A stretch of DNA of 64,000 nt from assembly GCF_024697385.1 (NCBI RefSeq), contig NZ_JAILFV010000120.1:1-64000 (forward strand). The letters are read 5' to 3'. The notes beneath the pieces were generated by a model. The model did not search any database, was not told the DNA's origin, and was given only the letters and a program-made list of their open reading frames with translations. This stretch comes from Anaerovibrio sp. (GTDB lineage Bacteria; Bacillota; Negativicutes; Selenomonadales; Selenomonadaceae). Positions 3,361 through 63,349 of the stretch are shown piece by piece. Made by a program: the position numbers and the translations under genes. Positions within the stretch are counted from its first letter, which is position 1, and each line of letters begins with the position of its first letter.

Positions 3361-3503
3361 TTAGAACGCCTCTGTCCTATTCTTCTTCACAGAAGAAAAA
3401 TCTTCCAATTAGCGTTTCAACGAGCTGAGAGATATGCTCGCCAGCTGTTGTAGTTTGTTTTCCCCCACCTAAAGAGGAAGGGGACATCTTAAAGCTCGTT
3501 ATA
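3361..3503 (+). repeat. Structured repeat, type A (copy 2, altered left end)
   Basis: From GAAGAAAAATC rightward it is almost identical to copy 1. The left arm has drifted (AGAACGCC where others have TATAACGCC), but the hairpin TTCTTC/GAAGAA is kept. The right end is GCTCGTTATA. It lies between dfx and the Gfo/Idh gene, antisense to both. Confidence 0.9.
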
Positions 3504-8397: not shown

Positions 8398-8566
8398 TTA
8401 TAACGCCATTGTTCAAATTTTTCTTTTAAAAAGAAAAATCTCCCAATTAGCGTTTCCCCTAAAGGGACTAACTTCGTGTCGCAACGAGGTGGGATATATG
8501 CTCACCACCTGTTAAGGATCGTCCCCCCCACCTGTAGAGGAAGGGGACATCTTACACCGAGTTATA
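8398..8566 (+). repeat. Structured repeat, type B (copy 3), rnr-smpB junction
   Basis: Full type B copy bounded by TTATA on both sides. Relative to type A it carries about 27 extra bases containing CCCCTAAAGGG, and the central stem reads AGGTGG/CCACCT in place of AGCTGG/CCAGCT. It lies antisense between rnr and smpB, and its right end supplies the rnr stop codon (TAA at 8562-8564 on minus). Confidence 0.93.
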
Positions 8567-29403: not shown

Positions 29404-29464
29404 TTATGACGCCATTGTTGAATTTTTCTTCTGCAGAAGAAAAATCTTCCCATTAGCGTAAATA
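29404..29464 (+). repeat. Solo 5' hairpin form of the structured repeat
   Basis: Only the left module of the family is present: GACGCCATTGTTGAA, TTTTTCTTC/GAAGAAAAA around TGCA, then CCCATTAGCGT. The usual central and right hairpins are absent and ordinary sequence follows. Confidence 0.85.
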
Positions 29465-31465: not shown

Positions 31466-33433
31466 TTATTCTACCACAATTTCAGCATCAGATGCATGTT
31501 GCCGACGAATAATATCAAGTGTTGATTCCATGCCGAAGAACACCGGTGCCTTCATGCGCCTGCCATACTCAGTCAACAGCCTGCTGTCAAAGGTATATTT
31601 ACCATGCTCATTCGTAACCCGTTCACGCATCATGTCCATCACACTGAGATTATCCCCGTAAAGCTTGTTATAATTTCTGCCAGCATCAACCAGTACAGCC
31701 CTCTTGGTCCGTACCTTCCCATCCTGATATAAATGGAAGCTACGCGCCTTACTGTCTGCCATATTAAAATTGTTCCAGTAGACAAGATTGGCTCCGTCCC
31801 GTACAGGAATGCCACCAAAGACGGCGAAATTCGTATAACTGTTGTCAACATGGATCTGATTCACCGCAAACATATCGTCTATCACCAGGTCTCCCTCGTC
31901 AACATGGAGATATCCCTGATTGGTCCAGAGATTCGGTATCCGTGTGCCGTACTGTGAGTGAATACCTCCCACAGAGACACCGCCGCTGATAAGCTTCTGA
32001 GCGCCTGCTCCTTTAAATGAAACCTGCAGAGGTGATGTACCGTCAGCAGCAACAATAGAACCAATCTGAATGAAATTGCCTGACAAGTCCACATCAGCAG
32101 TATTGCCGCCCCCCGCTTTTGCTGATACACGGTTAACATTTGATGCAGCAGTATTATCATCCATGTGAAGAACCACAGTCTCACCTTCAGCAAGATCCAG
32201 GGAGAGATCACCTTGGGAAAGTACAACACTTGTAGTACCACCTGAAGTGACATTATTGCCTTTGATTGACCCCTGTGCGATGCTGGAAATGTCTATGTTC
32301 CCTGCGGAAGTCACATTTTTCAGTTCGATATCGCCGGTTCCTGCACTGATTCCTATATTGCCCCCGACAGAATTGATATCTCCTACGGTATTTATATTTC
32401 CCTTGTCCGTCGTCATGGAAATATCTTCACTGGCCTGAATATAACGAGCTTTAAGATGTCCCCTTCCTCTTTAGGTGGGGGAAAACAAACTACAACAGCT
32501 GGCGAGCATATCTCCCAGCTCGTTGAAACGCTAATTGGAAGATTTTTCTTCTAAAGAAGAAAAAATTGAACAATGGCGTTATAATCCCCAACAATGATAT
32601 CTCCTTGATTAGCCTTAATCTTCACATTTCCATCTACATTCAAATCACTGTCTAAATAAACACTTCCTGCGTCTTCTGTATTAACCGTCAAATTTTTATT
32701 ACTTTGAATACGGTCAGTAACATGCAGGTCACCATTGCGTCCGGTCAGCTCTATATCAGCCCCGGACTGCAGTACACCGTTCTGGCTTATGATGATATTC
32801 TGGCTGCCTGGATTATACTGAGCTTCACCGGCTGACATGGATATATCCCCATTTTTAGTAGAGGTTTTGCCATAAATCATTATCTTGCCCAAATCAACTT
32901 TTGCATTGATATTATCCCGTGCAGTAACAGTTTCCACATCCGGGCCATTATCACCAATAGTAACATCTCCCGTTCCTACCTGAAGACCTATGCTTCCCCC
33001 GGTGGAGGTGATAGCAGAGCCTATATCAATATCGCCCTTATTCGTGGTCATGTTAATATCATCAACGGCTTTCACCTCATGTCCTACAACGATTTCGCCC
33101 TCATTTGTGGTGATATTCACAATTCCATTTACATTTACATCTGTATCAAAGTATACACTTCCCTTTTCTGAGACTTCAGTCGCAAGACTCTTTTTTGGCC
33201 TGAATACGGTCGGAAACATATGGAGACTCTTCCTTTTCTACTTGATTTTTCTTGGTGGCCTCATCCTCCGCTATCTGTTCCAATACCCTTTCCCGTTCCA
33301 TGTCCCTGCGGTCCCGCTCCATCTGTGCACCGGTGTCCATTCCCATCGCTGACTCTGCGACAGCCGTCCCATGACTCCCGGCAATCATACCAAGCAAAAG
33401 AGCAACAGAAATCAAATTGGATATCTTCATCAT
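31466..33433 (-). pseudogene. Filamentous-haemagglutinin-like surface protein, broken by frameshift and repeat insertion
   Basis: Three ORFs form one gene. It starts at ATG 33433 (AGAGGGG upstream) with a signal peptide (MKISNLISVALLLGMIAGSHG..AVAE), then a charged coil, then beta-helix-type repeats (GDIDIGSAITSTGGSIGLQVG, GDIIVGDY) and a C-terminal domain ending DIIRRQHASDAEIVVE. Break 1: an AAAAAA run near 33196 shifts DRIQAKK out of SLATEVSEKG; one A fewer restores it. Break 2: a type A repeat at 32440-32583; removing it with one TTATA joins VGDY to IQASEDISMTTDKG in frame. Probably a secreted adhesin remnant. Confidence 0.85.
32440..32583 (-). mobile_element. Structured repeat, type A (copy 5), inserted in surface-protein gene
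   Basis: Complete type A copy in minus orientation, nearly identical to copy 1. TTATA stands at both ends (as TATAA on plus at 32440-32444), consistent with target duplication. The host reading frame resumes exactly if the element plus one TTATA is removed, giving direct evidence of insertion. Confidence 0.93.
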
Positions 33434-46231: not shown

Positions 46232-46398
46232 TTATAACGCCATTGTTCAAATTTTTCTTTTAAAAAGAAAAATCTTCCAATTAGCGTTTTCCCTAAAGGG
46301 ACTAACTTCGTGTCGCAACGAGGTGGAGATATGCTCACCACCTGTTAAGGATTGTCCCCCCACCTATAGAGGAAGGGGACATCTTACACCGAGTTATA
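46232..46398 (+). repeat. Structured repeat, type B (copy 6)
   Basis: Complete type B copy bounded by TTATA on both sides, antisense between pgi and the MATE gene and ending 26 bp past the MATE stop. Stem AGGTGG/CCACCT and the CCCCTAAAGGG insert are present. Confidence 0.93.
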
Positions 46399-54791: not shown

Positions 54792-54961
54792 TTATAACGC
54801 CATTGTTCAAATTTTTCTTTTAAAAAAGAAAAATCTTCCCATTAGCGTTTCCCCTAAAGGGACTAACTTCGTGTCGCAACGAGGTGGAAGATATGCTCAC
54901 CACCTGTTAAAGATTGTCCACCCCACCTATAGAGGAAGGGGACGTCTTACACCGAGTTATA
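54792..54961 (+). repeat. Structured repeat, type B (copy 7), between iscS and iscU
   Basis: Complete type B copy with TTATA at both ends, antisense within the iscS-iscU operon. It leaves 12 bp to the iscS stop and about 30 bp to the iscU start. Confidence 0.93.
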
Positions 54962-63178: not shown

Positions 63179-63349
63179 TATAACTCGGTGTAAGCTGTCC
63201 CCTTCCTCTATAGGTGGGGGGGGGACAAGCTTTAACAGGTGGTGAGCATAGCTCCCACCTCGTTGCGACACGAAGTTAGTCCCTTTAGGGGAAACGCTAA
63301 TTGGAAGTTTTTCTTTTTTAAAAGAAAAATTTGAACAATGGCGTTATAA
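63179..63349 (-). mobile_element. Structured repeat, type B (copy 9), inserted in a palindrome
   Basis: Complete type B copy in minus orientation. Outside it, AAACGCCACAGA and TCTGTGGCGTTT are perfect inverse complements, so an existing hairpin was split. Removing the element and one TTATA leaves a 12-bp stem with the loop ATTATA. Confidence 0.92.

Follow-up and report, generated by a model that had tools for sequence, protein, structure and literature searches.

The window analyzed here, the whole 64,000-nucleotide stretch of an Anaerovibrio sp. contig, contains a minus-strand gene that is divided by a short inserted element. The product of the gene is a repetitive, adhesin-like surface protein, for which a Pfam domain search returned no domain. 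The upstream part (32551–33237, minus strand) has a frame that ends within the element: it reads ...NQGDIIVGDY and extends a short way, by a few codons, within the element before it reaches a stop. Beyond the element the frame resumes with ...YIQASEDISMTTDKG, and the downstream part occupies 31466–32439 (minus strand; IQASEDISMTTDKG...). As first drawn, the element spans 32440–32583 on the plus strand (144 bp, TATAACGAGC...GGCGTTATA); the letters of the window at 32440–32583 are TATAACGAGC...CAATGGCGTTATA, and the next base is A. The net insertion is 140 bp, with one TATA left in the reconstructed empty site, and joining the flanks with that single TATA restores VGDYIQASED in frame, as the earlier note had claimed for removal of the element. 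The interrupted gene also carries a second defect (window 33172–33240): near 33185, where six T follow one another, the frame shifts, just past a signal-peptide-like start fused to a repeat (YVSDRIQAKK). The gene appears to have been shortened internally, and it may already have been dead before the insertion, or the frameshift near 33185 may be an assembly error; because of this second defect, the element need not be what broke the gene.

Homologues of the interrupted gene were sought in 16 genomes of Anaerovibrio. Another genome of the genus (G004, locus L117) has a homologous gene with an uninterrupted frame of >1000 codons where fetched, and its alignment with the host flanks spans the junction for 138 bp, with 97 identical positions and 0 gaps. 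A paralogous repeat in the same gene (33029–33219, minus strand) provides a second uninterrupted comparison, with window positions 33029–33162 matching the host flanks over 134 bp across the junction, again with 0 gaps. Both gapless alignments bear out the claim of an insertion into a once continuous gene. At the insertion spot the G004 homologue reads CATCA; the target TATAA is therefore particular to this lineage.

Eight further pairs of filled and empty sites came from A. lipolyticus DSM 3074 and UBA3726, which are approximately 92% identical. Five have clean junctions (L171/L218, L173/L212, L050/L216, L092/L211, and L099/L213), one (L177/L215) has a one-base difference in the target, and two (L175/L214 and L181/L217) are more diverged. 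The homologue, the paralogous repeat, and the five junction-clean sites agree that the empty site can be reconstructed with no bases added or lost. At L171/L218, a target reading AATAA gave AATAA at the left edge and TATAA at the right edge after insertion; no more than ATAA can therefore have been duplicated, and the right-hand T is the element's own. This result lends no support to a 5-bp TTATA target duplication as the mechanism. One of the empty sites, L216 (genome G008; empty for the UBA3726 copy L050), already reads AATAGCGTTATAA, much as an isolated leftover of an earlier right end would.

At the window site, the repeated block is exactly ATAA. The left copy (32441–32444, plus strand; TTAT on the minus strand) is preceded by T32440, which belongs to the target, and the right copy (32581–32584, plus strand) is preceded by an element-borne T, so the fifth base of TTATA agrees between the edges only because the target carried a T. 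Both ends are present in 149 distinct copies. In these, the left ATAA follows a T in 127 cases, an A in 19, a G in 2, and a C in 1; a T precedes the right ATAA in 149/149, and the right ATAA is completed by A in 148 and by G in 1. The duplication of TTATA suggested earlier is half right: the ATAA block is repeated at both edges, but the fifth base is unequal in 22/149 copies. Because the search pattern demanded most of the ATAA block, part of the block's constancy is built in; this does not apply to the empty sites or to the free base. On the minus strand the target reads TTAT, and the +1 position is A in 85%. Element orientation relative to ATAA is the same in all copies, and the flanks beyond ATAA are unspecific. 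As judged with a simple frame finder, 71/90 copies are intergenic; frequent placements are a stop codon or a −10 box, both of which contain ATAA.

These data show that a gene-less element inserts beside a fixed ATAA (plus strand)/TTAT (minus strand) in one orientation, after which the site stands once at either edge and the sequence is otherwise undisturbed. Insertion is thus specific to a target and to one orientation, in contrast to a staggered cut that duplicates whatever target it meets. The target must be ATAA; the second ATAA either arose by duplication or is the end of the element itself. We regard it as almost certain that the element is mobile, oriented, site-specific, and non-autonomous.

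A conventional MITE, with short inverted ends (TATAACG/CGTTATA), a DDE transposase, and a 4–5-bp A/T-rich target duplication, would account for several of these features: the inverted heptamer ends, the direct repeats at the edges, the high copy number, and the empty sites with one repeat copy. However, the repeat is nearly always ATAA in a single orientation, whereas a DDE complex, being symmetric, would be expected to insert in either direction at a site that is not palindromic; the fixed orientation therefore argues against a DDE transposase. The unequal fifth base also speaks against a MITE, as does the conserved, covarying internal structure described below, which a MITE would not need. 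In addition, no recurrent transposase lies beside the copies, and the inverted ends have only 7 bases in common. We consider a MITE quite improbable.

The copies have a common architecture, (W)ATAAC-hp1-GTTGAAAC-hp2-GTTATAA, in which hp1 and hp2 are hairpins; they contain no gene and range in size from 84 to 176 bp. In the window copy, the hp1 domain (32443–32524, plus strand) is closed by AACGAGCT (32443–32450) pairing with AGCTCGTT (32517–32524). A GA linker follows (32525–32526, plus strand) within the invariant central motif GTTGAAAC; GTTGAAACG is invariant among 20 diverse sequences. The hp2 domain (32527–32580, plus strand) is formed by AACGC (32527–32531) pairing with GCGTT (32576–32580) and encloses an inner A/T hairpin at approximately 32542–32566. 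In the 144-bp form, hp1 encloses the sub-hairpins CCCC..GGGG and CAGCTGG..CCAGCTC; compact relatives are without them and have a perfect hairpin at hp1. The minimal form, of 84–97 nt (for example, ATAACGAGGGCGAATACGCCCTCGTT GA AACGC...GCGTTATAA in G049, L241), consists of two hairpins, each opening with AAC and closing with GTT, on either side of the invariant GTTGAAACG. The hairpin foot of the element does not carry the GTAG tetranucleotide.

The pairing itself is conserved. In hp2, seven pairs have changed on both sides (16 cells versus 5.3 in shuffles, 0/500), and end-stem pairing of hp1 within copies is 4.51, compared with 3.79 ± 0.10 when arms were shuffled between copies. A compensated hp1 variant, AACTCGGTGG..CCACCGAGTT, is present in G010; in the AACTCGG left-end subfamily only three bases pair with the partner arm, with the exception of G010, where the partner has changed too. 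Compact copies folded as single-stranded DNA gave z-scores of −6.8 to −10.2.

A stable, conserved structure would also suit an element that works as RNA (a riboswitch, an sRNA, or an IS110-type guide RNA) and not as a DNA substrate, and a weak co-orientation with downstream genes (48/70) points the same way. That co-orientation, however, can arise because −10 boxes and stop codons contain ATAA. No Rfam family was matched at gathering score, and the IS110 (DEDD) recombinase is missing from ten genomes (G000, the genome of the window itself, together with RM50, JC8, LB2005, G010, G046, G047, G035, G049, and G021). The flanks are also unspecific outside ATAA, unlike a long guide-matched target. 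An RNA-level role is accordingly very improbable. A match to the preQ1-II riboswitch was rejected as weak (E 0.21, far below gathering).

The window contains four complete copies of an older, 166–170-bp subfamily (63179–63348, plus strand; 54793–54961, 46233–46398, and 8399–8566, all minus strand). Also present are a copy of the 144-bp subfamily cut by the contig end (1–138, minus strand), a partial copy without a right end (3380–3503, minus strand), and a solitary decayed hp2 end (29405–29459, minus strand). The genome as a whole (G000, 207 contigs, incomplete) has 41 matches to the element, 40 of them at 98%–100% identity. Contig ends hold 28 of the 41, for example, the ends of C36, C108, C172, and C194 and the starts of C133, C186, C187, and C193. 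The repeat itself therefore fragments the G000 assembly, and the copies counted are a minimum; the element explains the poor assembly of such genomes.

A search with the two-hairpin pattern found 70 copies in G000, 42 in RM50, 30 in G057, 13 in G035, 1 in G031, and 7 in G457, which belongs to another class; the reversed pattern, used as a control, had 0 matches in any of 399 genomes. A weaker DNA search placed the element in 24/101 relatives, with no match at E ≤ 0.001 in G001, G003, G005, G007, G011, and G014 of the same genus. G000 shares the element with named Anaerovibrio genomes (Selenomonadaceae, mostly rumen), which assigns it to this genus, and a related core is spread across Selenomonadaceae, plus the one genome of another class. 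In the latter (G457, another class of the phylum), locus L266 has a two-hairpin element between dnaK and dnaJ. The 144-bp consensus differs between G000 and RM50 at 1/143 positions, whereas three conserved host stretches of the two genomes match at 73%–79%, which indicates recent movement, probably between species. Strict patterns found no element in viral contigs, and 11 matches to a looser pattern there proved to be unrelated; phages likewise had no element, and plasmids had only a 31-base A/T match. No description of the element was found in the literature.

Head-to-tail copies with one common GTTATAAC are present at L258, L336, L003, and L280, and the left flank is GCGTTAT in 13 copies; the right end of the element may thus itself serve as an insertion site. 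At L091, two inverted element ends make a palindrome-like structure of approximately 60 bp.

Tandem copies with a single common GTTATAAC would follow if a site-specific tyrosine or serine recombinase acted on double-stranded DNA through a circular form with the joint GTTATAAC, with crossover at TTAT. Such an enzyme would also account for the orientation, the common TTAT, and the partial next-base preference. It does not fit the one-sided strictness of the site, where ATAA is essentially fixed but the other side is loose; moreover, the subfamilies do not share half-sites outside the core, and no recombinase gene is linked to the element. We judge this route unlikely.

A strand-specific, hairpin-reading transposase fits the two hairpins as well as the target rule and the empty sites. 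We propose that an enzyme acting in trans would fold one DNA strand and cut it beside TTAT/ATAA, at either foot of the paired hairpins; the excised strand would then be pasted at a new site, by analogy with the Y1 (HUH) transposases of IS200/IS605 and PATE elements. To the statement as a whole, a gene-less two-hairpin element with a fixed ATAA site moved by a single-strand enzyme in trans, we assign a probability of roughly 0.55. The single-strand, Y1-like route taken by itself is somewhat less than an even bet. As for a lagging-strand template bias, in RM50 (99% complete, 43 element copies), the plus strand of the element lies on the G-rich strand in 30/43 copies (p = 0.014 versus 0.5; p = 0.046 versus the intergenic WATAA background), a lean toward the single-strand route that is weak and confounded by gene orientation.

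Against the Y1-like route, many carriers are without a detectable Y1_Tnp domain (PF01797; not found in RM50, JC8, LB2005, G046, G041, G049, G021, and G047), and none of the 28 Y1 loci examined in the family has the element's paired ends. No longer parent copy was found, all 43 RM50 copies having a left end close upstream, and clustering of 1284 neighboring frames identified no recurrent transposase next to copies. TnpB was not found in G000, nor was a REP-associated transposase (TnpA-REP) detected. G000 has a single IS200-type tnpA (L048 64–591, contig C174). The IS200 copies at L048 and at L156, in a second genome of the genus, have TATAA directly before the left end, which hints that an enzyme related to IS200 tnpA could share the element's target; the hairpins of these copies, however, are unlike those of the element. 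A Y1 match beside an element end in G002 (L159) was discarded, as it lies in the frame of an unrelated cell-wall gene.

The mobilizer was either lost after a burst or comes from a family outside those tested. One extension of the latter is a two-hairpin family old enough to be present in another class and moved by an unrecognized mobilizer, neither Y1 transposase nor IS110 recombinase, that would read folded DNA and insert in one orientation at ATAA; this we hold to be rather doubtful. The clean filled and empty pairs in A. lipolyticus DSM 3074 and UBA3726, together with approximately 40 copies in the isolate RM50, make it possible to test what mobilizes such gene-less hairpin repeats where the usual Y1 transposase is missing from the genome.

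Several known systems resemble the element in part. Like REP/BIME sequences with TnpA-REP (PMC8266576), it has short paired hairpins, is intergenic, and is present in tens to hundreds of copies, and REPs are likewise thought to move in trans. Unlike them, it is without the GTAG motif and a detected TnpA-REP, and its units follow one another head to tail and have AT or GA separating the hairpins. SMR-A, a class of small mobile repeats in Haloquadratum (PMC3119063), is similar in size (approximately 110 bp), in having no target duplication and a target preference, and in that its mobilization is unknown. SMR-A has prominent inverted terminal repeats and inserts in PATE palindromes, whereas the element has 7-base shared ends and an ATAA site.

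The palindrome-associated transposable elements (PATEs) of Haloquadratum (PMC3119063) are, like the element, gene-less, with palindromes near both ends, no reported target duplication, many near-identical copies, and a high share of the differences between strains. PATE ends match IS605-type transposons of their own genome, whereas no such parent was found for the element and many of its carriers are without Y1. In the IS200/IS605 family itself, the target of IS608 is TTAC with approximately 70% C at +1, and that of ISDra2 is TTGAT with approximately 90% G at +1 (PMC5934647). The element differs from this family in having no tnpA or tnpB and in that its left and right cut motifs are both TTAT; its hp1 and hp2 begin at the cut sites, whereas the hairpins of IS608 are subterminal with a separate guide. 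It nevertheless shares with IS200/IS605 members such as IS608 and ISDra2 (PMC5934647) insertion 3′ of a fixed tetra- or pentanucleotide that is kept at the left edge, a strong +1 preference, hairpins at both ends, and a fixed orientation.
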